A model generated the notes under the pieces. That model had not been told where the DNA came from. It did no database searches and saw only the letters and a program-made list of their open reading frames with translations. Of a stretch of 64,000 nt of DNA, positions 44,189 through 64,000 are shown piece by piece (within the stretch, counting starts at the first letter, position 1; each line of letters opens with the position of its first letter). The stretch lies in contig NC_090943.1 in assembly GCF_040807025.1 (NCBI RefSeq), positions 27,185,213 through 27,249,212 of the forward strand, in the 5' to 3' direction. The translations under genes were made by a program, and so were the position numbers. The DNA comes from Struthio camelus (Eukaryota; Chordata; Aves; Struthioniformes; Struthionidae).

Positions 44189-44276
44189 TTTTGTCAGTAG
44201 TGCAAAGAGAGACAATCCCAAAGTCACAAATGAAGTTGCACCTAAGGACCACATCACTGCATCAGCATCACAGAGG
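44189..44276 (-). pseudogene. TMBIM copy A: 88-nt exon
   Basis: Acceptor TTTTTAG, donor GTAGGT. It encodes DADAVMWSLGATSFVTLGLS and then LFALLTK, the family's helix that ends with F-Q-T-K. No stop. Same length and phase as copy B's exon at 61263-61176. Confidence 0.82.
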
Positions 44277-44358
44277 CTAAAAATAAAGTATAAACCTTAT
44301 TTTGAGTGACATGCAGTTTAACTGGCACCACTAATTCAAACTCTGTTCAAAGACTTAC

Positions 44359-44396
44359 ACTAACACTGCTCCAAGCATTAGACCCTCAATAACTGT
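44359..44396 (-). pseudogene. TMBIM copy A: 38-nt exon
   Basis: Acceptor ATTTTAG, donor GTAAGT. It encodes TVIEGLMLGAVL plus two bases. Length, phase and the first three residues (TVI) are shared with copy B's exon at 61385-61348. Confidence 0.8.
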
Positions 44397-45543
44397 CTAA
44401 AATGAAGTAGAAATAGTAAGTTGTAAAGATAACCTGTTTAAGCAGAAAGCCTGCACTACAGGCTCCCTATTTGCAAGAAGATGTAACAGTGAAAAACTTG
44501 TTAAGTGTCATAAAAAAAAAAAAAGTCCTGAGAGCCTGAACTGATGAAATACGACAAGTGCAGAAATATTAGCTTTTGTTAAAAGGTGTATTTTTATTCT
44601 TATTGTGTCACACGAGCATTTTAGAGTAGATATAAAGTACTTCTAAAGACAGCTTTAGCATGCATTGAAAGAACAAAGTGGTTTTGATCCTGGTATGTTA
44701 TTTCTGCCATAACTTGACCTAGCCATGGTCCACAGGTCCAAAAAAAGGAACACTTCACAAAATCTGGAGTTAGTTCTTGGCTCTGCTACACACTTGAATG
44801 AGTAAATAAGAAGTTGCAAAGACTTATGCATGTTATTCATGCAAGGCATACATCCTGCAATACATTTCAAGAATACCATCCTTTCAAAGCAAATTTTAGC
44901 TTCAGGAATCAAGAGAATAAAAATGTGCTCCTCTCACAAGAGAAAAAAATAAGTACAGCAACTTAGTACAGGACCATATAGAAATGCAAAGGGCACCAGT
45001 TAGTCAGCTTTGTATCAGATTACAAGCACTTGCAGTGAATACATTTCCAGCGAAGCACTGCAGGTATACCCTCTGCAGCCGACTGTGGAACAGATATGCA
45101 CAGAAAATTAGAACAGAGGGTTCTTCAGAAGTGACCCATGAGAGCAGGTTAGCAGCAGGAAACTAATCGGAAGCAGTGCAGCTAAATCCACTGCCAAACA
45201 ATTTATCTGTCTAAGCAGCAGAGGCACAGAGTGTGCGTGGATATACGTTACTTCTAACAAATAACTGACACACTTCCCAAAAGCTCCTAAGACAAAATGA
45301 TTCTGCACGGGCAGCTAGTGTCACTAATATGCCCGCTCCCCAAGCGGAGCCAACATGCTGTCTTCTGCAGCTCTCTGTCCTGTCTGTTAACATTTGAAGT
45401 CCCTCAGAGCAGGGACAGGTTCAGATGACTCTAAAGAACTTAGCTGAGAGGGCCCCACTATTTTGATGCAAAAATTAAATAAAATAAAGTGAAAATGACA
45501 AATAAGAGAACAAAGAGATTGCTCATTTCAACAAAATACTTAC

Positions 45544-45637
45544 CAAAAAAAATGCCAGTAAAATGAAATTAAATGGAACTTTTCGTCAGGTGCTGCCACA
45601 GCAGGCAAGCACGATGGCCAGAATAAAGACGGCTGCG
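45544..45637 (-). pseudogene. TMBIM copy A: 94-nt exon with TGA
   Basis: Acceptor CTTTTAG, donor GTAAGT. It reads AAVFILAIVLACCGST, TGA, RKVPFNFILLAFFL. The second helix, the Cys-Cys/basic loop and the P-F-N motif are typical of TMBIM. The TGA sits where family members usually have Arg, so a CGA to TGA change is likely. Confidence 0.8.
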
Positions 45638-45812
45638 CTAAAAGGAAGACTTTTTAAAACACTTTCAATGAAACAATTGCAGTTATATAGCATAAAGTGA
45701 TACATACAGTCATAATTTCATGTTAGACATTCGCCATAAGGTAAAGACTCACCCGCTGTTTTATTCAGTGTATGACATATCTCTTCTTAGTAGGCAGATA
45801 GCACATACTCAC

Positions 45813-45866
45813 GTAAGAGAGTATGAAAACCAAGGCTTCGTGCTTATCCATCATCTAAGCCTGATC
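45813..45866 (-). pseudogene. TMBIM copy A: 54-nt exon with TGA
   Basis: Acceptor CTTCCTAG, donor GTGAGT. Read in the frame set by both neighbours: IRLR, TGA, WISTKPWFSYSL. The length and phase equal those of copy B's exon at 63719-63666, where this codon is TGG (Trp). Confidence 0.75.
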
Positions 45867-48413
45867 CTAGGAAGAGACAAAAGGCACAGAAATTTTCAGC
45901 TCATACTACCCAGAAATAGATTATTTAAAATTGCTTGGGCATGCTTTCCTTCCAGGCCTTTGTTCAAATATGATTTGCAGTTTATGATATATGATTTACA
46001 TTCCCACATAAGACTACAGTTACAAGCTGATCGCCACAAACTGCCGCTACTGAAAGGACCATGCTGGCCCTCTCCCTTATCAGCTCTTTCTTCCCACTGT
46101 TTCTTTCTACTGCCTTCTCTTCTGCTGCGACTAGTGCTCCTGCAAGTATGCAGGGCACCAGAACAGGGAATGGATGCACTGAATTACAAATCTCCCCTTT
46201 CTCCCGCCACAAAAAGACCCAACACACAAGAAAGCCAGCAGCAGCACAAGAGACGGGAGCAAGAGGACAGACAAGCAGAGGGAGACGGCACAGAAGTCGT
46301 CTGGTCGTTTTAGCAACAGTGCAAATGACATCTGAAGGAACCAGGTCACCCCAGATACAGAGAGGGTATGTTTGCACAATTTAAAAGGCCAAGTTAGCAC
46401 ATTAACTACAGAAAGCCTTGCTCCCCAGACCTTGGAGCACCCTTGCATTAACGTGCTGAAGAGGGAACTCTCCCCAGGGTCTTAATTCTGTCAGAGCAAC
46501 ATGGCTGAACAGTGGTTGCTCTAAATTTCGTATTATAGGCAGAGCTAATACTGTTCACAATAATTCTGCAAACTCTTCCTGTTACAAGACACATATTCCT
46601 TTGCTTCGTAATTTTGTTGGGTGAAGGGATCAGACTGGATACCAACTGGCTCTAGCTCCTGTTGAAAAATTCAGCCAACCACTGTTATGAAAGGTGTCAG
46701 GAGGAGAAGGTTTTGCCCACAAACTGTATGCTAGCAGCTTTAGCTTTGAGAAGCTCTAACATCCCCAAATTTTGGAGCAGGCTACTGGAATTTAGGCTGC
46801 CTTTGTTTAAAAAAATATCCTTTTTGCTATGCTTTAAAAAATCGTTTTGAAACTGGCCACGCTCTTAGGCTTTAGAAAAGAAACAACACAGCGCTGAGAT
46901 GAACGAGAAGCGGTGATTGGACCAGGGGGGCAAAAAAGCAGGACCAAGAGCCTTGCAAGCATGAGATGGGGTCAGATTATGGCTGGGAGCTAGCTGGCTG
47001 AGGTGGAAACATGAATGCTTGGCGGCAAACTGGGAAGTGGCGTAAACTGGGACTTAAAACTAATGCAGCTGGGAACGGGGCAAACGAAGGGAAAATTGAT
47101 ACCTCGAGGCCCAGCAGTAGAGAACTGACCCAGGCGGAACGTAAGGCACAGTGTAATTCAGAGCAGGGCCTGGAAAGAAACCGACGGATCAGAGCGGCAG
47201 CTGCGATGTGGGAACTGCTTGGCAATGAGAAGACAAGGTCCACAGTCTACAAGGAACAAACTGGACTGAAATCTGTAATGAGACAGACCTCGACAAGGGA
47301 AGCAAGCCAGGGGCTGGGCAGGGAAGAGAGACAACTGAAAGAGCCTGTTCTCCTCACAACCCCTCAGAGCCTGGAAAGGAACCTGTGGATTCTGACTGGG
47401 ATCAGCCTGTGCAGCCCCGCGGCAAAGCACCCAGGCCAGCCCCGGCAGGCCATCCAGGGCCATGCGTCTCTGCGGCGGGCCCACGGGTTCCAACGCTTGT
47501 TTTTTCAATTTAGTTTTTTGTTTAACATGGAAATTACTCACATGCACGTTAACTACATTAAAGGAACACGAGGCTGCAAAATCAAATGCCCCAACATCGA
47601 CAAATGCCAGCGTTAGATGTATGCATTAAGACTCACTCCTAGATTACAAATTTACACACAGTTTTTCCCACATTTGTGCACTTCTTAATGATCTGTAGAT
47701 GGAAAAGAATTAGAATCCTTCCTGTTCATAAGTAGCTTAAGACTTTATTTTCTTACTGTACATTATTCAAGTTTGGCAGTGAAGACCAGAGCATTAATTT
47801 CTTCACCAGCTCTCCTGATGTGCTCAGAGAGATGAACTTAACAGTTTACACTGACTTTCAATTACCTAATGTGACAAGACTACACCCTAATCTTTCAGAG
47901 TCCCTAGGATTACGTAACGCTCCACAGGTTCAGAGCGCAATTCCCACTGATTCTGAAAGCAGGGTTAAGCACTCAGCGGGAAGGCAAGACCATGCCCACT
48001 GGATCAGAAATGGCATCTCAAAGTGAGGCCGAAGCAGTGGAACATTTTGGTATAACTGACTTTCTCACTGTCACCCAAGGAGCTCCATGCCAAAGGCAGG
48101 GATAGGATACAAACGTTCAGGGCACCGTTCAACTACTTCAACCATGAGACAGTCTTTGGCTTCCCTGAGGTCCCCTACCTCATGCATTGCACATGCCCGG
48201 GGCAAAGAACACCCCTCTTTGCAGCACGGTTCACCTTAATTTGGTTGTGAAGAGCGCTCAAGAATGGGGCTGGAAAAATCAAACTACTTTTTCGTTCCGT
48301 GGCAGAACTTAACAAACTAATCTCACAGAATGGCTAAGAGCAATGTTTTTTAAGTGCATCATACATGTTGTTACCAACGAATACACGAAGGAAACAATAA
48401 CACACCAACATAC
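45867..48413. other. Intron between copy A TM1 exon and 54-nt exon, GC-rich in part
   Basis: From about 46050 to 47500 the DNA is comparatively GC-rich with overlapping open frames on both strands, the longest 201 codons on the plus strand (47011-47616). The predicted peptides are basic and low-complexity; I do not call genes here. Confidence 0.5.
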
Positions 48414-48492
48414 CAGTAAACGAACAGGCAGATTATACCAACAGCAATCCCCAGCTGAACTGTCAGGATGAGATACGCTGCACTGATGAAAT
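48414..48492 (-). pseudogene. TMBIM copy A: TM1 exon
   Basis: 79 nt, acceptor ATTTTTAG, donor GTATGT. Its frame reads FISAAYLILTVQLGIAVGII and then CLFVY, a close match to the first helix of lifeguard proteins (VYSILTVQLLLTVGI). No stop inside it. It ends with TG, completed by G of the next exon to Trp. Confidence 0.8.
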
Positions 48493-48805
48493 CTAAAAAT
48501 CATGCAGGCATTGTTTCAAATTAGATACAAAAAACTCCCCAATAATTATCTTTTTTTTCCTAAATTACATCATACAACTTTAAAATGGCAGGATGGAACA
48601 ATTCTAGTTATACTATTAGATATTGCAAATAGCTACAGAAGTGGAGCTAGGCAGATAGGTGTTTTGCAGTATGTTACAGCATCTGGTATTCAGAGCACAA
48701 TTAAGATGTTGGCAGTCCCAAACTGAAAACAAATCATATACTTAGATTTCTTTACAAAACGCAATGTGTTAGTACAGCAAACGATTTGCATCATTTTAAG
48801 TATCT

Positions 48806-49126
48806 GGAGGGGGGGATGTCGAGAGGATGGGGCCAGACTCTTCTCCGTGGTGCCCAGCGACAGGACGAGAGGCAACGGGCACAAACTGGAACACAGGAAG
48901 TTCCCTCTGAACACGAGGAAAAAACTTCTTTCCGGTGAGGGTGAGAGAGCACTGGCACAGGTTGCCCAGAGAGGTAGTGGAGTCTCCTTCCTTGGAGATG
49001 TTCAAAACCCGCCTGGATGCGGTCCTGGGCAATATGCTCTAGAGGACCCTGCTTGAGCAGGGGGGGTTGGACTACATGATCTCCAGAGGTCCCTTCCAAC
49101 CTCAACCATTCTGTGATTCTGTGATC
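48806..49126 (+). mobile_element. CR1 non-LTR retroposon, 3' fragment
   Basis: About 320 bp matching the 3' end of bird CR1: the GGTTGCCCAGAGAGGTAGTG block, GGAGATGTTCAAAACCCGCC, TTGGACTACATGATCTCCAG, GGTCCCTTCCAACC, and a terminal ATTCTGTGATTCTGTGAT. The element is 5'-truncated, as usual for CR1, and lacks reverse transcriptase. It is the main clue that the DNA is avian. Confidence 0.93.
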
Positions 49127-50748
49127 TTGTAAGACAGCAACTAATATAAGTATTTTCTGTAACTATGAAAACAGTGAACAGAAAAGATGAAACAGGATAT
49201 AGAAAAGATTATTATAAAACTTCTTATGAAGTTACATTGCAGAAATTAATACACCACACCATACTGTTCACTAGGTTTCTGTCTCACTCCTCAGGATGTG
49301 TAGAATACACACTCGGCAGCACAGCACATTTTACTTCTCTGTCACTACTGTAGCAAACACAGAAAGCCTGCATCTAGAAAAGTGCTTTTTAAAATTAGTG
49401 CCCTTTGAATCAGTTCTCCTCAGATTTTCCCTCACAATTATGAGAGTTCAGGGTAAGAATTCACATTCCTCTTTCCCCTGCGGACAGTCTTCAGAGAAGT
49501 GGCTGGTGAACTTTGCCCTGCGGTGTCCAGCAGGCTTTTCATGGCCTTCTGCTGGAGCACCGCAAAGTGCTGGAGAACCACCCCGAGACAGCTGGCAGGC
49601 CGATGGAGGCGACCCTGAACTGCCCACGTTCAGAACAAAAGAAACAGCCTCTTCTCTAACACTCAGCTGGAGGGGATTTCCTATCAGACACCGATTCTTT
49701 CAGCCCTTCACCTCACGGATATTTTGCTTCTCCACATCTTCAGAAATTAAAATATTTTCTGCTCCCTGGAATAACTGAAACCGTAACGGTTGATAGCATT
49801 GGGTAGTCAAGCAGTACACCCGTCAGTGACCCTAGAAGTGCCTTCTTCCTTCACTGTCAGACCACTATGTAAAAAACATTTCATCCCTTCTCATTGGAAG
49901 AATAATCCTTTACCTGATTGCAAAATACTGTTTTCATGCAATTCACAATTTCCACCTTTAGAAGGAATAGACTGCTAAGATTAGTAATCCCTAACAATGT
50001 CAAATAAGGCGTATTATTAGCTTACTTTTATGTCCTCCTTTGCTAAAAATCATTTGTACCTACTTGCAATCACATCGTTTCTCAGAGGGACAAGTACTTG
50101 CAAGCCAAAACATAGGTTAATTTCACTATCCCATAGCTACTTGTCAAAAAAGCAGACCTAGGCTGTGAAAAATATTGGAAAAGACAAGATAAATACATGT
50201 TGTCTGCCTACATAAAAAGTGCACACTTAGTGTACAGGAAGCGTGCATGGTCGGGAGACAAGACAGTGGAGCTAAATATGAACCAATCATTTCCAAAGAC
50301 CAAAACAAGCAGGAGGTTACATTTATTCAGAAAACTCCTCCTTTCAAGCAAGCTCTATGCCCAGTGAATATTCTACCCCTTGCAACACCAGGCTACTGGC
50401 TCTCTATTTATTTATTTATTGCCCGCCATCCATGGACATTAAGTGCAGCTCCCTAATTGTCAGTTTACACTCTTCCTAGTCTTCCTCCATTAGTTTTTCT
50501 GCTCAGGCCTTCCAGTGCGAAGTAGGGCCTCGGCTAACTGGCCTCTTGTTTCAGGTATTTCACTCAATACAGGAGATCTAGCATATCCCAGGCAAAACGT
50601 GAGCAGCATGCCACCATCTTCAGCGTGGTCCGTGATTCCCCCGACCAGAGATGCTTGCAAACACAGCCAATATAGAAGTGGTCTTCACATTCTTTTAAAA
50701 AAATATTTACTTGGGGACACACAAAGCTTGCTTTCATACAGGACTTAT

Positions 50749-50791
50749 TACAGCAATCCAAGGTCTCTTTTACAGCAATCCAAGGTCTCTT
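50749..50791. repeat. 21-bp direct repeat, two copies
   Basis: TACAGCAATCCAAGGTCTCT plus T occurs at 50749-50769 and again at 50771-50791. Confidence 0.9.
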
Positions 50792-52031
50792 AACACTTAC
50801 ACGTGAGAACAATACTTCTGCACTACCATCAATAAAGGATCTGAATAACGTTGACATAAAAAGGTCTTTGGGGTGCACTAATCATACTAGAAACAACAAG
50901 TACTTAAATACATAAAAGCTCTGACCTCTCTATTGCATAATGCTGGGAAAATAGAAACCACAACCGTTAAAGAAGCCCCATGCAATTCTACATGCATTCA
51001 AAAAATGTCAATTTAGTTAAGAGATTCAAACAGAATTAGAATAGAAGAGATTAATAGAAGCCCCTGTACTAACTCAGGTTACCGACAGTAAACCCTGAGC
51101 TTCCCCTGCGGTAGCTCCAAGGGCCTTTCACAAGGCCGTGAGCACTATCATACCAACTGCATTGTAATCTGAAGGTGTCATTTCACTTAGATTCCATTTA
51201 AATGGCAGACTTCAATGAAACAGCACTTTGATTTGTCAAGAAATACTGAATTAAAACCCTCTTCTGCCAACGTTACGTAACATGGTTGGCTGAAACCCAC
51301 TGCACTGCCTCAAATTAACGCATCAGACAATGGTTTCTTAAAGCTCAAGCATTTTTTTCTAATTATTGCGTGAAAGCAGAAGGAAGGATCACAGCGGATA
51401 AATTACCAGAACAACATGCAGTAGCAAATTTAGTTAAGAATACACCTATACATGTACAACAGACAGCTCCTACATCCGTGGCTGAGCGGGAAAAAGACTC
51501 TGCAGCCTTGTTTTGGAGAGACCACAGGGGAAGAAGCCAGAAGCGCAGAAGACGGCAAAAAAAAAAAAAAAAAAGACTGAAGCAAAACAACGTGCTCAAA
51601 AGAGTTGGGAAAAAAACCCACCCCGCTACTTCCAAACGCACTTGCTCTCCCCTGGCTGCCGCTGCCCAGGGCCCGGGCGGAGGAGGCGGCAGCGGCAGGG
51701 AGGGCCGGCAGGCAGAAGCTGCAAGAACGCTGCGGGGAAGAGTTTGACTTTAAACAGCACCGAAGAAAATGAGCTTAACGTGCACCAGAGAAGGTTTTAC
51801 AAGCAGAAAGCGCGGCAGCAGGAAGGACGAGGAGGCAAGGGGCGGCACAGCGTGCGCGGCCCACCAGCGAGGCAGCGGCAGGGGGCGGCCTAGGGGCGCC
51901 GCAGCCGCTTCACCATGGCCCCTCTGCCCCCAGTTGGCGGCCGGCGGCCAGGAGGGCAGCCCCACACCTCCGGGCCACGCTCCGGCACGGCTCGCCCGGA
52001 GGCGGCCGACGGGCTCAGCGGGGGGCAGGCG

Positions 52032-52060
52032 CCCCCCTCCCCTCCCCTCCCCTCCCCCCC
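52032..52060. repeat. Homopyrimidine (CCCCT)n tract
   Basis: CCCCTCCCCTCCCCT-type pentamers with C-runs; the G-rich complement could form a G-quadruplex or triplex. Confidence 0.8.
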
Positions 52061-52231
52061 GCCGCGGGCAGCGCCCGGCGGCCCCTGAGGCGCCAACGGC
52101 CGCCGCCGCCCGCCCTGAGGCGAGGCGAGGCGGGGCGAGGCGGGCCGCGGCCGCCCCCCGGCGGCGGGAGGGCGCCGGCGCCCGGCGGCCCCGCCGCCAG
52201 CAGAGGGCAGAGCCCCGTCGGCCCGCTCCTC

Positions 52232-52255
52232 CCGCCGCCGCCGCCGCCGCCGCCG
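52232..52255. repeat. (CCG)8 trinucleotide repeat
   Basis: Eight perfect CCG units in the GATAD1 5' leader or proximal promoter, 142 bp before the start codon. Confidence 0.95.
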
Positions 52256-52283
52256 CGACATCCGCCGCCGGCGGGAAGAGGCC

Positions 52284-52313
52284 GGGGCCGGGGCCGGGGC
52301 CGGGGCCGGGGCC
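52284..52313 (+). repeat. (GGGGCC)5 hexanucleotide repeat
   Basis: Five perfect GGGGCC units, then GGGT, 83 bp before the GATAD1 ATG. The same unit as the human C9orf72 repeat, in a normal-sized run. Strong G-quadruplex potential on the plus strand. Confidence 0.95.
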
Positions 52314-52396
52314 GGGTCGGGTCTGGCGGCGGCGGCGACCGCCGCGTTCCGCCGTGTGGCTGCGAGGGGCTGCGGGCCCCGGCGGCGGCGCGGAGG

Positions 52397-52588
52397 ATGC
52401 CGCTGGGGCTGAAGCCCACCTGCAGCGTGTGCCGCAGCACGTCCTCCTCCATGTGGAAGAAGGGCGGCCAAGGCGAGATCCTCTGCAACAACTGCACGGC
52501 CCGCTCCGCGCCGCCCGGGCCCGGCGCCTTCGCCACCACCTCGGCCGCCGCCCAGCACAGCAACGGCGGCGGCGGCGGCGGCAAGCAG
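52397..52588 (+). CDS. GATAD1: GATAD1 exon 1: GATA finger
   Basis: 64 codons from ATG to donor GTGAGG, phase 0. MPLGLKPTCSVC begins the zinc finger; after the finger come Pro/Ala and five consecutive Gly residues before KQ. Confidence 0.95.
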
Positions 52589-55500
52589 GTGAGGCCGCCT
52601 CGGCCGGGGCTCCCCGCGCGGGGCCGCCGCCGCCGGGCCGCGGGCGGGCCGGGCCGGGGCTGCCCCCCGTCCCCGTCCCCGTCCCCGCCACCGCCGGTGT
52701 CTTTGCATCCTAGAGCAAGCAAGAAATACACAGGCGGTCTGCGCGGCTGCGGAACACCAAGTACAAGTCCGCCCCTGCTGCGGAGAAGAAGGTTTCCACG
52801 AAGGGCAAAGGGAGGAGACACATCTTCAAGTTGAAAAATGTAAGGCGGTGCGTGGGTTTTCCTGCCGCTCTCGGGCAGGGTGTTGAGGAGCGGGCTGCGG
52901 TCAGGGCCCGGCGGGGCCGGCCCTCGGTGTGCCGGGGTGACCCGGGCCTGCCGAAAGGCTGCCCCCCCCCCCCCCCCAAGGGGCTGCGCATTTGACATGT
53001 TTGCACTCATTCCTTGTTTCCTAATTTTCTAAGAAGATTCTCTATCAGGATGCCCCCTTTCTAAAAGGGGGGGGGGGAGCAAATTAGCATCACATAGTGT
53101 GTTTGTGCTAACACTGCTGACCTTCCCTTTCTCTGTTGTTTTCTCAGCCTATCAAGGCTCCTGAATCTGTATCCACTATAATTACAGCAGAATCGATCTT
53201 TTATAAGGTATGGTTTATGCAAGTTTGTTTGCAAAATGGATCTGGCTGTTTCTGTTTCCGATTTCAAAAGTTAATGCAAATATTGAAAGTGCTAAGGATG
53301 TATTTGCAGAAGCTATACTTTCTTTCCCAGCATTATGTGTAGTGTGTTGTTTTGTTTTATGCCATTGCCATTGAGGCTTGTGAAGCAGTTTATTCCAGAA
53401 GTTGTTATCGTCCCATTTTTCTTCTTCCAAGAAAAAGATGCATTTAGTCCCCCTAGTAATTATTGCCATCAAGATCTTAAAAATTATATGTGGTTAAGTG
53501 AATGAGTGAAGGAAAATTCTTAACTCTCACTGTGCTGATAGCGAGCAAAACTGACTATAGCTGATGATCACTTAAACGTATGAGATGCTTCCTACGTTAA
53601 GCATATAGAATAGTGCAGATGATAGGTTGCCCTGCCTTAACATCTGAACTTGCTCCCCTTTCAGAGCTGCATGTGAGCAGCGTCAGGCAGCCTGGGAACA
53701 GGATCTGTTGAACCTTCCAAGGAAAGCAGAAGCCGGTCACCTTCTCACGTTTCACATTCTAGAGCATTTTTAACAGTGCACCAACATGTTAGTGTTTTGA
53801 AGTTCTGAAACTTGCTTTTGCCTTCCAGTAAAACAACAACCCTTTTGAGACGTATTTTCCTCAAAATGAAAAGGGCCAGGATAGCCAGTAGCCATTGTAC
53901 ATTTGCCAAATGCTATAAAAACACTTGAGAAGTGGGGTACCGAGTTTCCTTATACTCACTAGAGACCTGATGCTGCATGTCTCACATCTGAGATGAATCT
54001 CTATTTTGCTGTTGACTGCTTTGGAAGAGAATCGATGTCTTTTCTTGTGTTTTTTGTTTTCATCAGAAATTCCTGAGAATTATATCAGAAGTCCTATCTA
54101 ACCTGACACCCTTATGCAAGATCTGTCTGTTTTTACGCTTGGCTGTGTTTTTGGGGAGGGAGTGGGTTGATTTTTTTTTGTTTGTGTGTTCTTTTTATCT
54201 GTTTTAAAAACAAAACCCTGCTGGGTGATTCATGGCAAACTCTGATCTTGATTGTGCAAACACTGCCTTGTGCTGTGTGACACTGTTATAACATGAACTG
54301 ATACTGCCATCGCTGTGCAGCCTCATGCACGTTAGGGCACCTTGTAAAATGGTTGAGCCTTGGCAGTAGAAGGAGACGGGTCTGTGTTTTGGGACTGAGT
54401 TGCATGCGGATCTGGGTTGGTACACTCTTCTTCATGTGCAGAAGGCTGCTTTTTCTGTACACAGCACAGCTTACTGCTGTTACTATTTCTAGATGGCATC
54501 GGACTTGCTGTTCTACTTCTGACAGAATAAGACCATTGCCAGCCTGCAGACAGGCATAACAGTCCACAGAGAGGGAAGGAGCAGAACAGCTGAGCTAGCC
54601 GTTTCTTTGAAGATGGATAAGGCCAAGTTGCTTCTGCCATTGCACATTGAGCCCACAGTAGACCACGTGGAATTGCCTGTTTGGTTTCAGAAGCCGTTTT
54701 GGGACCAAACGCACACCTCTAGACATTAGGTGACTCTGCTCAAGCTGTGCCTATGGCTGCATAGATGAGACAAGCTTCATCTTACGCCACCTTTCACTTG
54801 CATGTAGCTGGATTAAGATTGTCTTTTGAGACTGGGTTAACTTGAGATAATGTTAAGATATTGATATTTAAGATACTCATGAATCAGAATTAGAGTGAAG
54901 CTTCCAAAATCAGATTGTTTAATTATCATTTGTACGTCTTTTAGGGCGTGTACTATCAAATTGGAGATGTTGTTTCAGTGGTTGATGAGCAGGATGGAAA
55001 AACATACTATGCTCAGATCCGTGGGTTTATTCAGGACCAATACTGTGAAAAGAGCGCTGCACTAACCTGGCTCATTCCAACGCAAGCCAGCCCCAAAGAT
55101 TGCTTTGATGCTGCATCCTATATCATAGGTAATCTCTAAGCTGTCATCTTCTGCGACTTCTGCATGCCTAGACTGATGCAAGCAGAGTTGTAATTTTTTA
55201 ACTTTTCTAATTTGTCAAAATCATTTATGTAATTGCCACATTTTAGACCCTAATCCTGTAATCATTTATCTCACTCGAGTAATGTTTTATTTATGTATGT
55301 GTGTATATGTGTGTGTGTGTGTGTATATATGTGTATATACTGCATGTATGTACATATATACTGCTCCAGTGAGTGGGATTGTTTACTTACATGTGCTCAC
55401 AGGACAGGCACAATTACAGTCTTGCAGCTTCGAGGATTAAATTATTCCTCCATAGCTGGAGTCAAAGTTATTACAGTATAAATCTGATACACTAGGCAAG

Positions 55501-56102
55501 CTGTTTCTTTTAAAGTGTACTGAATTAACTGGTCTTCTTCCAGGGTACTTAGAATGGATAGGGCGTAAGCACTAGCAGAGAAAGTGTTCTGTAACTGATT
55601 ATAAAATTACTAATATTTCGGGAAAATCCTTTTGACAGGCAGGCTACAAACAGTATTCATTTAAAATATGTTAACTAAAATACTTCATTCCACTCGACTA
55701 ACTGAATGCTTAAAAAAAAAAATCATGCCGACAAAAAGAAATGTAGACGTTTCTTATGTAGTATTTGAGGCTATTTTACTGACAATGCCATTAACTGAAA
55801 TTGCATATTCTGTGGGGGATTTTGGCTCTTGTTGCATGTTACGTAGTTATTGGATGTTCCAGTTTTAAGCCTTGAAATTTTTGACTTTGGGGTTTATTTG
55901 TTTTTTCCTAGGACCAGAAGAAGATCTCCCGAGGAAAATGGAATATTTAGAATTTGTCTGTCATGCTCCTTCAGAATATTTCAAATCCCGATCATCTCCC
56001 TTCCCTACTGTTCCTACAAGACCAGAGAAAGGCTATATATGGACTCATGTGGGACCTACTCCAGCAATCTCCATTAAAGAAACTGTTACCAACAATTTAT
56101 AA
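52397..56102 (+). CDS. GATAD1: GATAD1, GATA zinc finger domain-containing protein 1 (complete)
   Basis: Five coding exons: 52397-52588, 52714-52839, 53148-53207, 54945-55128, 55912-56102. All have AG/GT borders and join to 753 nt (250 residues). The N terminus carries one GATA-type finger, C9-x2-C12-x17-C30-x2-C33 (CSVCRSTSSSMWKKG, then LCNNC). A Gly/Ala-rich low-complexity segment follows, then a basic RRSARLRNTKYKSAP region and a conserved C-terminal half (IKAPESVSTIITAESIFYK, YYQIGDVVSV, YCEKSAALTWLIP, PRKMEYLEFVCHAPSEYF). The human protein is a chromatin factor linked to H3K4me3 and the EMSY/KDM5A/SIN3 complex; I recall 269 residues, the difference lying in the low-complexity linker. The Ser changed in a human dilated cardiomyopathy family (S102P, from memory) corresponds to S83 here (YKSAP) and is conserved. 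The ATG has A at -3. Confidence 0.97.
52714..52839 (+). CDS. GATAD1: GATAD1 exon 2: basic region
   Basis: Acceptor CATCCTAG, donor GTAAGG, 42 codons. Encodes SKQEIHRRSARLRNTKYKSA, then KKVSTKGKGRRHIFKLKN. The intron before it is only 125 nt. Confidence 0.96.
53148..53207 (+). CDS. GATAD1: GATAD1 exon 3
   Basis: Acceptor TTCTCAG, donor GTATGG, 20 codons, phase 0: PIKAPESVSTIITAESIFYK. Confidence 0.96.
53208..54944. other. GATAD1 intron 3
   Basis: AT-rich DNA of 1.7 kb without recognisable features. Confidence 0.6.
54945..55128 (+). CDS. GATAD1: GATAD1 exon 4
   Basis: Acceptor CTTTTAG, donor GTAATC, 184 nt. Encodes GVYYQIGDVVSVVDEQDGKT, IRGFIQDQYCEKSAALTWLI and ends SYII with one base of the next codon. 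Confidence 0.96.
55293..55360. repeat. (TG/TA)n microsatellite in GATAD1 intron 4
   Basis: GTGTGTGTGTGTGTGTATAT core with TATG/TATA variants on both sides. Confidence 0.85.
55912..56102 (+). CDS. GATAD1: GATAD1 exon 5 (last)
   Basis: Acceptor TTCCTAG, stop TAA at 56100-56102. Encodes PEEDLPRKMEYLEFVCHAPS, RPEKGYIWTHVGPTPAISIK and ends TNNL. Confidence 0.97.
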
Positions 56103-57650
56103 TTTTTTTTAAAAGGAATACTCTGGACCAGTTATTTTGGGTGTATTCTCAGGTCTGTGAACCCCGTACAGGAAGTTTAAAAAAAATTGTAAAACGTTCG
56201 TGGATTGTGGTACTTATTTATTTTAGGTTATATCTGATTTTTAAAATGGAAATTCTCTTTCTCTTTGATGCTTCTTTTCCATGCTCCATTCTTCAGTCAT
56301 TATTGCTCAGTTTGGGGGGAAAAAAGCTACAAATTTAATTTCATCTTCCAGTTCAATGAACAAGTGAATGACTTGAAGTTGCCTTTAGTGTTGTTATTTT
56401 CTAACTTATTTCTAGGAAATGAGTTACAATCCCTACTTCGGATCATCCAGCACTTTATATACTTGTTTAATGTAGTTAACTGTGACTGAAATTTGTGTTT
56501 GTTTCCTAAAAATAACCTAAGACTAGTTTTGAATAAACACTTGGAGGGTCTAAACTTGATCAGTGATGCAGTTAACAGTTTTCTGTTGCACTGGAGATAA
56601 GTGATCTCCTTTGATTTTTGTTCTTTAAACTAGAACCTTTTCTCCTGGCAGTATGTACAATATGGCTGTAGTCCGTTTACCTGTCATCTTTTAAAGGAAG
56701 TTTGTTCAGCTGAATCTAAAAAAATGTGGACCTATGTAGCTTTCTGCTCTGCACTTTGTTTACATACGGGGATAAATTTCTTGTTAAGCTGAACACAGAT
56801 TAAGGAACTAATGTTATTTGGCTTCCCTATCCTGGCCTCCTTGCAGCAGTAATTTATCTTATTTCCAGAGCAAGCCAACGCTGACACATGATTTGAATTT
56901 GATGTTGTTACTAGTTGTGTGTTAGCTTACCCCCTTAAATTTGAGTTCAAATACTTTTTTCAGTCTTTGCAGTTAATGAGGGTAAAAAACAGAATCAGCA
57001 GAGGTTCCATATTTAAAAAAAAACCCAAACAGTTGCTAAGGAAAGAGAGAGACTAATCTTACACTTTGATAGTCTCAGTATACGAATGAACATATTTAAA
57101 TAGCAGAACTGGAAAAATACCAGAGTTTATATAAAGATATTCAAATGAATAGAAACTGGATAGTTCATATTAAAGTTCTATGCAGTAAACATTTTACAAG
57201 CCAAATAGGTCAAAACACTGTGAGGGGTGCTCAGATCACCCAAACTCCCTGTATTTAGTGTTTCCTGCTCCCTATGTAGCGTAAGAGATGTACGTGGAAT
57301 ACTGATCCTCTTAAACATGCTCTTACATTTAACTTTATAGCTCTTTTCAGCTTTTTTTGACTTATGTGACCGTAGCACCCAGAAACCACAAATCGACTTT
57401 AGTACATTGTGTGAAAGTCTGTAACAGTTGCAGTAGAGTTATATTTTAGCATCACGGAAAACTTTGACTTACTTTGAAATACATTTTGAAAGTGTCTCAA
57501 TTGTTGATGATGTTTAATACGGTGAGACCTGTGACAGCAAGAACCAGGCCTATTTGTTTCAGTTTGTTGCCTCAGTTCTCCCCTCTTCAAATACAATGAA
57601 GAATAGTCAACTTTAAGGGAATAAATGCTGAATTTAAGAGATTCTGGCAA
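56103..57650 (+). other. GATAD1: GATAD1 3' UTR (probable)
   Basis: AT-rich non-coding DNA after the stop. Poly(A) signals AATAAA lie at 56532-56537 and 57620-57625; either could end the transcript. Confidence 0.5.
56532..56537 (+). terminator. GATAD1 poly(A) signal candidate
   Basis: AATAAA 430 nt after the stop codon. A second AATAAA is at 57620-57625. Confidence 0.45.
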
Positions 57651-57961
57651 TAGCTCAGAATGTCTCCGGTTGCTTTAGAGGGTTCTAGTTCAAATGGCCA
57701 TAACAACTATCGAATGGCATGAGGAGTTTTCAGAAAAGTAGGGGTCATACCACATCCCTACTACCTTTAAAATATAAGAAAGCGATCAGTATGTAGCACC
57801 GGGCTAGCATGACTGCTAATACAGAGTTAAATCTCAAATAGCTCTAGTTACTGCATGCGTTTCAGATGCGTATGTTCAGTGTGTTGCAGTAATGGTGACC
57901 GGTGAAAGTGACTTCACTCCTGGCCTTCTGACCGAGCGCTCCTTTCTCCCACTTCCTCCGA

Positions 57962-58022
57962 CTTCTTAATTAAATTAACAAGCTGATTGTTTAGCTGATT
58001 CTTCTTAATTAAATTAACAAGC
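57962..58022. repeat. 22-bp direct repeat, two copies
   Basis: The 22 bases beginning CTTCTTAATTAAATTAAC occur at 57962-57983 and 58001-58022, 17 bp apart. They lie in the gap between the convergent GATAD1 and TMBIM copy B genes. Confidence 0.9.
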
Positions 58023-58311
58023 ATCAGAAGGTAAAAATAATGACTCTTGAAAGTTATTTACAGTAACCACAGTGACCCCCTCAAATGTTATATCTCCTCT
58101 CCTTTTTCTGCAGTCTGCAAGCTTTTCACATCGGGTTCCCTCAATATTCCTCATCTTTAGTAACTCTGAGTTGCGTTTTTGGTAATAATGTGACATCCTT
58201 CATTCATGAGACTGACCCTAAGCCTTGTGATGACACCATCTCATCAGCGAGGTAACATATTTTATAGATTAGCACAGTATATTATGCCACACTCAACAAC
58301 CTCCCCCCACC

Positions 58312-58317
58312 TTTAAT
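58312..58317 (-). terminator. Possible poly(A) signal of TMBIM copy B
   Basis: ATTAAA on the minus strand about 107 nt after the stop codon. No AATAAA is nearby. Confidence 0.3.
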
Positions 58318-58423
58318 ACCTATTTCTACAATTCCCTAAGACAATTTTTTGTCTATAAGAAGACTGTTATACAAAAATGCATCCTGTAATCTGAGCTGAC
58401 ATGTACCTTCCTTTAGTGGATGA

Positions 58424-58585
58424 TCAAGGAAAAGAGTGTAAGGGTATTGCATCAACTAACAGCAAAGTAAAGAAGAAGAGCATAGCAATGTGTATGTAAA
58501 GTGACCATGCTGTCTGAGTGTAATTCATGGAGGCTTGATCCTTTGTGGGTTGCCTTTCAAGCTCAGCTACTGTCTTCATCAAATC
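58424..58585 (-). CDS. TMBIM copy B: last exon
   Basis: Acceptor CTTCCTTCAAG; 53 codons to TGA at 58426-58424. DLMKTVAELERQPTKDQASM, then NYTQTAWSLYIHIAMLFFFT and a short tail ending LHSFP. LY.HI..LF aligns with family LY.DI..IF; the SPEEY motif is not recognisable. Confidence 0.7.
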   Translation of the reverse strand, partial: DLMKTVAELERQPTKDQASMNYTQTAWSLYIHIAMLFFFTLLLVDAIPLHSFP

Positions 58586-61500
58586 CTTGAAGGAAGAAGA
58601 GGGAGAAAAATGCTTTTATTATTCATTCATATTCATGTATATTATATTCATTTTTGCTTTTTTGGGTTTTTACAATTTGTACAAAATTTAAAGTCCTTGC
58701 ATGCTGTTTGCCCTTATTTGGAGATAAATAATAGGGACAATTCAGAGAAATGCAAATGAATGATTTGCAGTTTGGAGTTTCTGTTTCACAGAATGACTGG
58801 AATTCCCTATTAATGATGAGGGCAAAGTCATAACCCTTCTCCAGCAGGGACAATAGTTGGTTATTAAGTCCTCGTGACTGCAAGATTATTTTTAGACAGT
58901 GGACCGCTATGAACCAATGGTAGTGAGAAAGAGAATATTAAGAGGAAAAAGAGATGTTACTGGGGGAGGTATTAACTCAGAGGAAACCTGAGCATGACAA
59001 AGGAAAGGAGGTTCAGATTTCTCCTCATTTACAAAGTGGTTTGTTTTTTTCATGCCTCGTTGTTTCATTAATGGTCCCTGCACACAATCTGTTTTTTTTC
59101 TAATGCAGCTTCCTGCCCACAAGTGACACTAATACTGTGATGAACTTTCAGCCTTCTAAGATGTCTAAAAAGATGGGAAACTTCCCAGGCTGTTCCACTG
59201 CTTTCCTTGGAGGCTAGGGGTACTTTATAACTGGAGTCTGATTTGGAGTTCTCAGTTCTCACATGTTTAGACACACACATTCCCCCTCTCGCCGCAACCA
59301 GAGGAGCAGGTAACAGGAGCAGCCCTTGTATCTAGAAAATTTTCATGGCAGCTTATTATCAGCAGAGACCTATGAGTAGTTTGGAAACCACTGTTGTGTT
59401 TCAGCAGCAAAGCAAAACGTCTACCTACTTGGGCAGATAAGAAGTGCACCTTGTTATTTGCTTCACCAAGTTCTATATTTAAAAATTTGGGGAGGGGGAA
59501 GAAGTGTGCCTTTCTACAGAACAGGCCTAAGGAAGTGGCCAATTTTGCAGCTACACAGATCTCAGCATCCTCCCATGCCAAATAGAAGGTCATACTGAGA
59601 CAGACGTCTGACTGCAGGATCAGGGAACCTTATGTTGGACATGAAGTTTGAAAGCTTAAGCAAAAAAGTTGGTAGCAAGATAATATCTTACCCTTATGAG
59701 AAAAAGCATGCCATATAAACGTTCTACTTACAGCAGCAAAGAGCAGAGTTCCAAATGCAGCATATATAACCTGGAACTTCTGTAGGAAAAGGCAACAATT
59801 TGCACTATGAAATGAAAGCTAGAATCAAATAAAAATGACATCCTTCACTGTATTTAAATCAATAGCAGCACTAAATCTAAGAAAGGCATATTCTGGTCAG
59901 GTTAAAAAAAGACACAATAAAGACAAGACTATCAAATGATGTAGTAGTTAAGTAGTCTAGTAGTTAGTAGTCTAAACCAAATGTGAATCCACCTCCCTTC
60001 TGTTATTTACCTAACCATGATAGATAATTACTTGGTTTGGAAAGGTGCAAAACTCATCTGTTTTCTAGTGAAACAGCCCACAGGAACTTTAAATACCTAT
60101 TTAGCCGTTTGGTCTTGCTATTCAATAGGAATTAAATAGGAAAAAAAAAAAATCACATCATTGAAAAAATATCTACTGAGCAGCTGATTAAACATAAACC
60201 TTGCCGTCTAAACATTTTTGCCACTTTCCCTAACACAGAAAAGGACCTTAATAGAGAAAACGACTTCTGCATTTAAACATTTTTATATAATTTGCTACAG
60301 TGTGATAAGAAGCTACTGATACTACCCAATACAGATACAGTGATTACAGGTACTGTACAAGATAAACTATAGCCATAGCAGCGTATCTCATAAGTGCACA
60401 TCAAGTAAACCACTTACAGATGAATTTGTAAGGACAAGTATAGCTGCTCCAATAAGCAGCAGGATGCTTGAGACGATTGATATGGTCATGCTTGTCAGGG
60501 TTTTCTGAGGACAGCAAGCACAGTAAGATTGTCTTTAGTTGCCATTGGCCAACACATCTTTGAATTAAAAAGATTATATGTTGTTCAGGGATTATGGTGA
60601 ATAAACTAAAATTAATGACATATAGTCATGATAAATCCTGAGATTACTACAGCTGGTTTAACGTTTTCTGGTCTGTTAATTAGCTGAATAATTCCTAAAA
60701 CACGTGTAATTGATTTCCAACTCTGTGAAGGGTCTGTTTTTGTTAGTTTCCTAAACTGACTTCCAACTACTGCTGCCGTCCTATTGATACCCATCAACGT
60801 TTCTGAGCGATGCTCTAAGAGAAGAATAAATAAATGGTAATATGTTAATAACTAAAACCAGACTACCTTCCACCTATGCATGTTTGGATTCTCTCACCCT
60901 TGATATAGCACACCTGTACAGTGAAAAACGAAGCTGGTATAGAGATTTGCAGGAGCATAGGATCTCTTCATTTAGTTCCCCAGTTCTCAGGTCAGACTTT
61001 TCATTTACCTTTTTTTTTTTAAACTATGAACACTGCTAATATTGGAGATGCAAACAAAGCTAGTAGACATGATGGCAAGACATTGAGTGACTCTAAAGGA
61101 TAAAACATATAAAATGATCATTACAATCATGACAACAGTTTATTTGTTGTTACACAGTCCATTAATGGTACTTACTTTTGTCATCAGAGCAAGTACAATC
61201 AGTAACAGCGTTGCAAATGCAGTTATTTCTCCAACTTGCATTAAAGTCATTGTATCATGGGAACTAAGACAATAAGATGCAGTTTATTATCTCAGAGTGC
61301 TCAAGAAGAATGCAAGGCAACGAAATAAAAATACTTAAAAGACTTACTCTGAAATAATTCCAAGTATTATACTTCCAATTACTGTCTAAGAAGACAAAAA
61401 GGATTTTTTTTAGAATTATAGAACAACCTCCCTTAGTAAACACGACATATTTTTATTTTAGTTTTTGATTATACTGGCATGTGCTAAAAATACCACAAAT

Positions 61501-63960
61501 TGGCAAGAATTCTGATGGTAAGGTCCTAAAAGAGTTTAGATCCCCAGTCACTGTCTTGTATTAAATCATTATAGCTTTATATGTGAGTATTTGAACAGTT
61601 CTGCTGTCTTGTTTCTTCATATTCCGAATATAAACCAGTAACATAGGAATAATGAATGATTCTCCAGAGAGCTTCTTATACACATTGCTGAAAGAATGGG
61701 ATGTCTGAGAGTAATTTCTCTTTCTCAGGACTTTTCATATTAGGAAAATGGAGGACAAAAAGAAGACTTAAAAAATGGACTCAACAGCAGAAGGGATATC
61801 ATAGGATCCCATAGGAACAGGATTTGATGGTCTGCAATTGAATAATCTGAGCTCACCCAATACTATACTTTCTTTTCCCCTTTGTACCTCCACTCCCCAT
61901 GCCAAAATTTAGGTAGATTTCATTTTTGCATCACTGTACTGTGAATAGATACGCTACTACTAAATTTATTGCTTTGTGTTGAGCTTCCGAGCTTTGTGAC
62001 CAGTCAACAGACCTTTCTGTTAAGCAGTTTCAGTTCTCAAGATGGAACATCTAGCTAAGACCTGAAGTCATTAGTATACTGAGCAATGTACAGAACATCC
62101 ACAGTATGCCCTGAGGTCTTTCAGTTTCATCTGCCTGCAGGAAGAAAATATCCTTTTTGTAATTGTAGGAAATCAGTATTATTGAGTACATTTGCCTTGC
62201 AGAACAGAAAAAAAGGTTCCCAAGATGGAAGTAATGGATATTCTTTTTAGAACGAATTTTTGACTGAGGCGAACACTTACTTTTGTGTCTATTTAGGAGG
62301 AATAAAAGAGCTTGACAAGGAAAAATCATGGGCTTCAACAATATACTTACCCCTAGGAAGGTGTAAGTGGCATGCTCTAAAATAATTTTGTTGGAAATTG
62401 TATGCAGGATAATAATAGCAACACTTGTCCCAGTTTAAAAAAAAAAAAGGAAAAAAGCAAATAAAGTATTTTTAGTGACTGATAATTCAAGTAAATATAG
62501 CAAATAACAAGTAAAATGTTTTAGTGTTGAAAGGAAAACATTCAGATTTCATATGTCTACTAAATATTCATTTATTTATTCAATATATTTTTACATTATG
62601 AAAGTGGAGTCTTTGTTATACAAAGCCATACTGCTTGAAATAGAGAAATGAATCATTTGGGATATATACACATAAATCATGCAAATAAACCAAGCTTATT
62701 TGTTCTCAGGCATTTGTCATATACTTGTAGGTGCATTAAGAACATATTTTGAGGGTGAACTAAATGATTTTGTTACTTCTAACTTGCCTGAGTGAGCAGC
62801 ATTGAAGATTTGAAGATTTGTATTAGAAGGCTGGACCAAAGGGAGAAAAACAGATTAAAAACCTAAGGCCAGCTTCTCCAGAAGATGTTATTTGTGCCTA
62901 TGAACTTTTTGATAAGCAGTATACCAGCATACTCGTCGGTTTTACATTCCAACAAAAGTTTTTTCTTCTGCTGCTTTTTCTGTACCTCTGCATCTCCTTC
63001 CAACACCTGAGCACTATGGATAGAGCTACACGGCCCAGGACAGACAGTCTTGGCCAGGCAGGATGTGAGCCCGCTACAGAATGGGAGCCAGTTAATAGAT
63101 CCTGCTGTAAAAAGAGCACCTTATTTTCTTTTCCCTCCTCTCCTCTCCCTGTCCAATAGCCCCCAGCAACTTGGTTTTCTTACTTTTGCATTCAACCCCT
63201 CACCAAGTGTAGCAATGAGAGCTAACTGAACATGATGGAGCCCTGAACTTTCAGCGCAGCTAAAATGGCTGCAATTGGTACGACAGACTAGCATGTATCG
63301 TTTCAACTTTTTTCAATCATTTCAAGTATTGGCTGAGGGACAATGAAAAACCTAACAATCACTACCTGGAAGATTACTTCATAGTTTTCAGCACACAGTG
63401 CTAGGTATATATCTATTTACTATCCTCACATTGAAATTCTAGCCTTCAATGAAGAAAAAGAGACACCAAGGAAGATGCGAAGAGAAGGGAAAGTCATGCC
63501 ATAATCCTACCGACCAACAAAACCAAAAGATGTAGGAAGAGAAGTAGCAGAGTACTGATCTGATCCACTCTGGAAGAGGTACCAAGTGGTACTGTAAATA
63601 ATAAACTCTCAGTTCTTAACATTTACCTGAGCTAGAAGTTTGGTGCTTCATATCTAGGTACTTACATGGGTGTGAGAAGAAGCCACCAGTATTTCTGCAG
63701 CTTCCATAATACTCTGGTCCTAAGGAAGGACAAAGCTGTAGTTACAACATCCTACAAGACTGCAAAATACATGCATTTCAGCATGACCACTGACCCCAAC
63801 AGCATTGCCAGAATTTAAATGAATAAAAACTTCGCTTCTCCTTCCCCCCCAGCTTGTGCTCGGTATAGTTTCCCCGAGATTTCTTTGAATGCTCCTCAAA
63901 TCCAGAATGCTCTCCTTACATCCACAGTTCCCGGAGGGCCAGTAAACCAATAGCAATGAA
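58424..63960 (-). CDS. TMBIM7-like (lifeguard/BAX-inhibitor family) membrane protein, copy B; 5' end outside window
   Basis: Eight minus-strand exons join without a stop: 63960-63920, 63719-63666, 62423-62351, 61385-61348, 61263-61176, 60504-60418, 59779-59732, 58585-58424 (591 nt, 196 residues plus TGA). Every junction keeps the frame, including two that split codons. Helices visible in order: FIAIGLLAL; WWLLLTPIVAIIIL; LEHATYTFLGTVIGSIILGI; ITAFATLLLIVLAL then MTK; MTISIVSSILLLIGAAILVL; FQVIYAAFGTLLFAAD; AWSLYIHIAMLFFFTLLL. This spacing matches TMBIM/lifeguard proteins (family: FQTK, VYAxLGxLLFxxxLxxDTQ, ALxLYxDIIxIFL). Such proteins sit in ER or Golgi membranes and modulate Ca2+ and apoptosis. 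Copy B is divergent: the Cys-Cys/basic loop is deleted and the second conserved Asp is His. TMBIM membership is fairly sure; TMBIM7 rests on synteny. The N-terminal exons are right of the window. Confidence 0.75.
59732..59779 (-). CDS. TMBIM copy B: 48-nt exon
   Basis: Acceptor TTCCTACAG, donor GTAAGT, 16 codons: KFQVIYAAFGTLLFAA. Best family match in the gene (lifeguard VYAALGALLFT). Confidence 0.82.
60418..60504 (-). CDS. TMBIM copy B: 87-nt exon
   Basis: Acceptor TCCTCAG, donor GTAAGT, 29 codons, phase 0: KTLTSMTISIVSSILLLIGA, then AILVLTNSS. One hydrophobic helix. Confidence 0.77.
61176..61263 (-). CDS. TMBIM copy B: 88-nt exon
   Basis: Acceptor GTCTTAG, donor GTAAGT. SHDTMTLMQVGEITAFATLL, then LIVLALMTK; aligns with the family segment YNTxxVLLAxGIT, then FxFQTK. 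Confidence 0.8.
61348..61385 (-). CDS. TMBIM copy B: 38-nt exon
   Basis: Acceptor GTCTTAG, donor GTAAGT. TVIGSIILGIIS plus GA, which with the next T makes Asp. Confidence 0.78.
62351..62423 (-). CDS. TMBIM copy B: 73-nt exon (21 nt shorter than copy A)
   Basis: Acceptor GGACAAG, donor GTAAGT. It encodes VAIIILHTISNKIILEHATY, then TFLG. Compared with copy A it lacks seven codons around the Cys-Cys/basic loop, in frame. Confidence 0.75.
63666..63719 (-). CDS. TMBIM copy B: 54-nt exon
   Basis: Acceptor CCTTAG, donor GTAAGT. In the frame imposed by both neighbours it reads TRVLWKLQKYWWLLLTP. The second W of YWW aligns with the Trp of the family's NPW motif. Confidence 0.7.
63920..63960 (-). CDS. 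TMBIM copy B: end of TM1 exon
   Basis: Donor GTAAGG. FIAIGLLALRELW plus two bases of a Met codon, aligning with AVGIICLFVYW of copy A. A CAG acceptor precedes 63960 after a pyrimidine-rich stretch, but the frame also stays open to the window edge, so the exon may be longer, as in copy A (79 nt). Confidence 0.6.
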
Positions 63961-64000
63961 CTGAAATGGCAAAGACGAATGATGAAGAGTAACAGATAAG

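Follow-up and report, generated by a model that had tools for sequence, protein, structure and literature searches.

Introduction

TMBIM7, also referred to as LFG5 or TMBIM1b, belongs to the lifeguard (LFG)/TMBIM membrane-protein genes. It is expressed mainly in testis in the mouse (PMC6842137) and has been lost in the naked mole rat and in the human (PMC6719933, PMC6842137), the human pseudogene being designated TMBIM7P. Three further papers bear on the family. In a table of PMC5451544, the conservation of Lfg5 is listed as eutherian mammals, and an SPE[ED]Y motif is described throughout the LFG proteins. In the bacterial member BsYetJ (PDB 4pgr), a pH latch is formed by Asp-171, Asp-195, and, from transmembrane helix 2 (TM2), Arg-60, and the Asp-195 residue, located in TM7, is given as present in all TMBIM members (PMC4416878). 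In both TMBIM6 and TMBIM1, Ca2+ flux is abolished when the di-aspartyl motif is changed (PMC9206080, citing others). Described here is a window of 64,000 nucleotides from the ostrich, Struthio camelus (contig NC_090943.1, positions 27,185,213 to 27,249,212), in which two minus-strand sets of short exons of TMBIM7-like character, hereafter copy A and copy B, flank a plus-strand gene encoding a GATA zinc finger.

The reading that we favor, with a probability of about 0.72, is that copy A is a decayed TMBIM7 gene and that copy B is a fast-evolved neighboring paralogue whose product is probably still a membrane protein, lacking the customary pH gate. Among open-licence PMC papers, judged mostly by their titles and the beginnings of their abstracts, no paper on TMBIM7 in birds was found, and TMBIM, GATAD1, and LFG5 do not appear in the main text of PMC4290089, which treats genes missing in birds. 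Whereas the testis expression of TMBIM7 in the mouse and its pseudogene status in humans are already known, two points are new within that literature: TMBIM7 is also broken in the ostrich, and a neighbor, open in two palaeognath annotations, is without a residue printed for all TMBIM members.

Exons of the two copies

The window sequence itself yielded the coordinates, lengths, phases, and splice sites of the exons. In addition, 3,406 stop-free fragments of the window were searched with a profile built on nine TMBIM7-type proteins. The reversed window supplied 3,506 control fragments, the best of which scored 9.6 bits. Copy A lies to the left, and copy B to the right, of the GATA-finger gene, which we take to be GATAD1. 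All exon positions given in this section refer to the minus strand.

Copy A extends from 48492 to 42565. The TM1 exon (48414-48492, 79 nt, donor GTATGT, 31.9 bits) encodes FISAAYLILTVQLGIAVGIICLFVYW, and no exon upstream of it was found with the TMBIM7-type profile. Exon 2 (45813-45866, 54 nt, 7.3 bits) reads IRLR, an in-frame TGA at 45853-45851, and then WISTKPWFSYSLT. A second in-frame TGA, at 45588-45586, replaces a conserved arginine in exon 3 (45544-45637, 94 nt), two pieces of which score 11.6 and 11.2 bits. These are followed by exon 4 (44359-44396, 38 nt, TVIEGLMLGAVLV, 8.7 bits), exon 5 (44189-44276, 88 nt, CDADAVMWSLGATSFVTLGLSLFALLTK, 42.0 bits), exon 6 (42754-42843, 90 nt, WDFTVVTGMLLILILVLAAFGILCANLQSF, 36.4 bits), and a remnant of the last exon (42565-42641, 8.9 bits), which encodes ILALSLDILNIFSLTFHLFGLSCK and ends in a stop codon. 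Between exon 6 (42754) and the remnant (42641) are ~110 bp in which neither the TM6 exon nor the first half of the last exon is present, and the surviving tail reads LDILNIF before the stop. The second aspartate of the di-aspartyl latch is thus retained in the remnant, within SLDILNIF, and the part of the exon carrying the first is gone. On the basis of its sequence, copy A is a TMBIM7/LFG5 pseudogene, carrying two TGA stops and lacking its TM6 exon as well as half of its last exon.

Two further features of copy A were observed. Exon 3 exceeds the family alignment by one codon at its 3' end, beside a run of eight T. Upstream of the TM1 exon, a stretch at 48790-49123, also on the minus strand, looks like a candidate CR1-type LINE fragment.

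Within the window, copy B runs from 63719 to 58424 and comprises seven exons that splice to 182 codons. The exon after TM1 (63666-63719, 54 nt) encodes TRVLWKLQKYWWLLLTP and is followed by exon 3 (62351-62423, 73 nt, VAIIILHTISNKIILEHATYTFLG, 0.9 bits), exon 4 (61348-61385, 38 nt, TVIGSIILGIIS), exon 5 (61176-61263, 88 nt, SHDTMTLMQVGEITAFATLLLIVLALMTK, 5.6 bits), exon 6 (60418-60504, 87 nt, KTLTSMTISIVSSILLLIGAAILVLTNSS), exon 7 (59732-59779, 48 nt, KFQVIYAAFGTLLFAA, 9.6 bits), and the last exon (58424-58585, 162 nt, 4.8 bits), which reads from DLMKTVAELERQ to WSLYIHIAMLFFFTLLLVDAIPLHSFP and the stop codon. The TM1 exon of copy B lies past window position 64000. A TM1-like stretch at ~63965-63919 was considered for this role and was ruled out: TM1 of the ostrich protein is MRVYCFTAFHLAITVGLICW, which is coded past the window and is joined directly to the exon at 63719.

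The profile thus places exons 1, 3, 5, and 6 of copy A above the best control, and exons 2 and 4 and the last-exon remnant below it. Exon 7 of copy B ties with the control, its exons 3, 5, and 8 fall below it, and exons 2, 4, and 6 are unmatched. The assignment of the sub-control exons of copy A, and of all exons of copy B, rests on order, phase, and strand, together with position for the last-exon remnant and, for copy B, with identity to ostrich proteins. Indeed, the 182 residues of spliced copy B are identical to residues 179-360 of the Struthio camelus "uncharacterized protein isoform X2" in the NCBI database (P0125), and, when exon 6 is omitted, the splice is identical to residues 179-331 of isoform X3 (P0001). 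This identity marks the window as ostrich DNA. Exon 6 encodes an in-frame hydrophobic helix that is kept in X2 and skipped in X3. Its skipping would alter the helix count, and it removes the Pfam match.

The initial annotation of this DNA had described two minus-strand sets of short exons on either side of GATAD1, with lengths of 54, 94 or 73, 38, and 88 nt and with matching phases and order. The exon coordinates and the GATA finger bear this out, the lengths, phases, and order are correct, the exons are real, and the family was rightly named. Both sets continue further than had been described, however: copy A by the 90-nt exon and the last-exon remnant, which lie to the left of the interval start given previously (44189), and copy B by the exons of 87, 48, and 162 nt. 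The sequence signatures that had been cited fare less well. VYA.LG.LLF is recognizable only in copy B, as IYAAFGTLLF; FQTK is found in neither copy, the corresponding residues being LLTK in copy A and LMTK in copy B; and LY.DI is replaced by LYIHI in copy B. As for the proposal of two genes, it holds for copy B, which is open through its 182 codons once spliced, but not for copy A with its two in-frame stops.

The reading frame of copy B

Of the three frames of the copy B splice, one is open across 182 codons, and stops are abundant in the remaining two. When fragments of the window having the lengths of the copy B exons were spliced at random, 4 of 20,000 draws showed an open frame, all frames being considered. 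The donor sites within the window are GTAAGT in all six cases. A search with the copy B protein against 1,750 candidates (E ≤ 10) returned two proteins, namely ostrich isoform X3 and a kiwi "protein lifeguard 1-like" (P0002), to which ostrich copy B is 76% identical (123 of 161 positions). A neutral simulation was then run to the ostrich-kiwi identity. No usable published neutral ostrich-kiwi distance was found, and thus values were assumed: for indel ratios of 0.05 to 0.15, the fraction of runs with neither a stop nor a frameshift was about 0.014 to 0.0001. Isoform X2 also aligns to almost the entire profile of Pfam family PF01027 (positions 3-204 of 207, E 3.3e-6). Taken together, the open frame, the donors, and the neutral test favor copy B as a putative working gene.

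In our alignments, the residues expected of a pH-gated TMBIM protein are replaced in copy B. A 15-row profile including copies A and B finds BsYetJ with a best E value of 6.1e-7, so that the aspartate columns can be mapped. Asp 269 and Asp 297 (alligator numbering) are lysine and histidine, respectively, in both ostrich and kiwi copy B under four MAFFT settings; the change at Asp 297, from LYLDI to LYIHI, is gap-free. Two conserved arginines, taken as the TM2 latch site, are both isoleucine in the ostrich protein and isoleucine and a gap in that of the kiwi. The PE[ED]Y motif preceding TM7 is also lost, the equivalent residues being ASMNY in the ostrich and ASKNY in the kiwi. Given the loss, in these alignments, of both latch aspartates, the TM2 arginines, and the PEEY motif, we infer that copy B would not act as the usual pH-gated Ca2+ leak and would instead be a membrane protein that is not gated by pH in the usual way. 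By a strict test it is a homologue that fails defining features of the TMBIM family (the Pfam cut-off, the latch, and PEEY) rather than a full member.

The N-terminal 156 residues of isoform X2, which are coded past window position 64000, match no Pfam family (best E 0.11). The first 40 residues of the ostrich protein are predicted with fair confidence to be helical (pLDDT 70-86 by blocks), whereas many TMBIM7-type proteins begin with a proline-rich region. In the model of copy B with a pTM of 0.34, which is of low confidence, the membrane part contains seven long helices. Among the best 50 Foldseek matches of the ostrich model are BsYetJ chains with E values of 2.3 and 3.9; BsYetJ is not among the best 50 for the kiwi model nor in 50 VIA-align rows. 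A search of the PDB sequences with isoform X3 gave seven unrelated weak matches only, the best with an E value of 1.7.

A number of observations weigh against an intact and functional copy B. Stops alone were absent in 20-23% of the neutral runs to the ostrich-kiwi identity, and the neutral test itself employs, in addition to assumed indel ratios, a predicted kiwi protein that is without its first exons and that comes from models chosen to be open. The proteins from both birds are predictions, and the isoform labels no more than hint at transcript support. The kiwi model is the shorter one, begins in what is an ostrich intron just upstream of exon 3, and differs at its C-terminus. Its first exons may have been lost or may have been missed by the gene model, and, with the comparison resting on a predicted protein, a frameshift in the kiwi gene could be present. 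Just two proteins were matched to copy B. With respect to Pfam family PF01027 (Bax1-I), for which the cut-off is 34.1 bits, the window exons of copy B (1.2e-5, 25.6 bits), isoform X2 (3.3e-6, 27.5 bits, profile positions 3-204 of 207), and the kiwi protein (2e-6, 28.2 bits) all lie under the cut-off, and isoform X3, which lacks exon 6, shows no match at E ≤ 10. The Asp 269 column lies beside an alignment gap, and copy B has another aspartate four columns earlier, so that this loss is less certain than that at Asp 297. Finally, the two AlphaFold models are poor, with pTM values of 0.34 and 0.39, and Foldseek returned no match for either at E ≤ 0.001 (182 and 72 matches at E ≤ 10, with the best 50 of each listed). 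Compared with BsYetJ, copy B differs at the latch aspartates, and its structure comparison gave no significant match.

These points lend themselves to the explanation that both copies are pseudogenes, copy B being annotated only since its frame happens still to be open. The start of the kiwi model is truncated, matching proteins number two, the Pfam scores are low, and 37 of the 64 comparable near-invariant family residues have been lost (27 are kept). We nevertheless consider this explanation unlikely: the donors are of consensus sequence in six of six cases, and no stop interrupts the 182 codons despite ~30% identity to its relatives, whereas neutral decay simulated to 30% identity yields on average 5.2 stops over 300 runs, albeit with some runs having none.

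The origin of copy B

The phases and exon order agree between the two copies, whose exon lengths are 79, 54, 94, 38, 88, and 90 nt for copy A and 54, 73, 38, 88, 87, 48, and 162 nt for copy B. A 55-bp DNA match, 74.5% identical (E 1.9e-4), spans exon 4 of both copies and its donor. A recent segmental duplication was ruled out: among the eight best DNA matches between the copies, that at exon 4 is the only significant one.

Two phylogenetic trees were built from 33 rows, with 284 and 214 columns, comprising 27 TMBIM7-type proteins, copy A, copy B, kiwi copy B, and three LFG1-3 proteins (GRINA, FAIM2, and TMBIM1), the last being provisional human sequences. The 30 rows other than LFG1-3 are split from these three with support values of 100/100 and 99/99 (both starred). 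Ostrich and kiwi copy B form one clade (100/100, starred), the stem branch of which is 9.57 and 7.04 changes per column in the two builds and is thus saturated. In approximately unbiased (AU) tests, copy B could be held with copy A (p 0.237), with the sauropsid TMBIM7 proteins (p 0.375), or with the LFG1-3 sequences (p 0.364), and none of these placements was rejected. Given this divergence, the tree neither demonstrates nor rules out that copy B arose by local duplication. The old local duplication proposed in the initial annotation fits the position, strand, exon order, phases, and 55-bp match but receives no placement of copy B from the tree, and it is on position, strand, exon plan, and the exon 4 match that we would base a probable origin of copy B by local duplication. 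We suspect that all LFG genes share this exon plan, in which case common exon lengths alone would be no proof of local duplication.

The relationship to LFG1-3 is pertinent here. The helix order of these proteins is the same, and they can be aligned over the whole membrane domain, but their identities are low, at 30-32% for copy A and 20-23% for ostrich copy B relative to the provisional human sequences. Copy B could in principle be an older lifeguard paralogue of the LFG1-3 type that came to adjoin GATAD1, rather than a duplicate of TMBIM7. The tree tolerates this, and for kiwi copy B the identities to the TMBIM7-type rows (22-30%) overlap those to LFG1-3 (22-26%). We judge such an origin to be rather improbable, for ostrich copy B is nearer to the 27 TMBIM7-type rows (25-32%) than to the three LFG1-3 sequences, it retains TMBIM7-like stretches such as LGIIS and ALMTK, and its strand and exon phases are those of its neighbor, copy A.

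Identity and inactivation of copy A

The family assignment of copy A is clear. It matches PF01027 with an E value of 1e-11 and 45.4 bits, over the cut-off of 34.1, so that the BI-1-like profile match suggested as a check on both copies was obtained in full for copy A and, for copy B, at scores beneath the cut-off. Nothing exceeded the NCBIfam cut-offs for either copy, and a PDB sequence search with copy A alone revealed no relative. Copy A aligns with TMBIM7/LFG5 through six exons and the last-exon remnant. In the trees it groups with the alligator and squamate TMBIM7-type proteins (98/93, starred, and 90/89, unstarred), inside a wider set to which amphibian, fish, shark, and mammalian rows also belong. 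The term positional TMBIM7 copy is therefore apt with regard to the profile match and the grouping, although what is present is a pseudogene rather than a gene.

Twelve of 1,219 candidate proteins matched copy A at E ≤ 0.001, the best being from the alligator with 64% identity. The others are from a crocodile, two geckos, two salamanders, a caecilian, two frogs, a shark, a ray, and one unnamed source; no bird is found among the 11 that are named. In a broader profile search yielding 539 proteins at E ≤ 1e-10, the only named bird in the best 120 is the ostrich itself, by way of copy B isoform X2 (P0125). This distribution suggests that A-type proteins are absent from birds. Compared with the eutherian listing in the table of PMC5451544, the TMBIM7-type database matches obtained here span sharks to crocodilians.

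Copy A keeps 38 of 42 comparable near-invariant family residues and was thus, by this measure, long under constraint. Its splice sites are still canonical GT/AG, the donors being GTAAGT in two of six cases. Although these two features would be in keeping with a shortened or recoded product, made for example by skipping both stop-bearing exons, such a product is highly improbable, as the stops fall in two successive exons, the exon for TM6 is gone along with half of the final one, no exon before TM1 was found by profile, and no named bird protein of the A type is among the 12 matches.

Neighboring genes

The gene order in the window is RING/IBR exons (plus strand), copy A (minus), the GATA-finger gene (plus), and copy B (minus). 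The GATA-finger gene starts with an exon at 52397-52594 on the plus strand that contains the zinc finger (PF00320, 2.5e-7). The plus-strand exons with RING and IBR domains presumably belong to ANKIB1, and copy A lies between them and the GATA-finger gene. In the mouse, Tmbim7 would likewise adjoin GATAD1 on the ANKIB1 side. An Rfam scan of the window gave no match.

Implications

The events at this locus may be envisaged as follows. TMBIM7, represented by copy A, would have been long constrained and then inactivated by stops and a deletion, in this case in a bird as compared with the human and the naked mole rat. Across GATAD1 lies copy B, a probable lifeguard-type paralogue that appears to have evolved very fast on its stem. 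It keeps an open frame and consensus donors, and its product is most likely still a membrane protein of several helices. Its role would most likely be a derived one, perhaps in testis by analogy with mouse Tmbim7. PMC4509753 provides a point of comparison in STK33, for which a part in spermatogenesis has been suggested and which palaeognaths have kept and neognaths have lost; here, by contrast, the ancestral-type copy is dead in the ostrich and the derived neighbor, known from ostrich and kiwi, alone is intact.

A more specific proposal, which we offer tentatively and hold to be somewhat doubtful, is that selection has maintained copy B, after the death of the adjacent ancestral TMBIM7, as a neofunctionalised lifeguard protein specific to palaeognaths, one that has no pH latch and whose N-terminal region is new. 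A family can now be given for an ostrich gene annotated as "uncharacterized" and for a kiwi gene that is loosely named. If copy B is translated, it would test whether the anti-apoptotic or structural role of TMBIM proteins needs the di-aspartyl latch, and, if the proposal is true, copy B would be a natural case of the TMBIM fold used without the channel switch.

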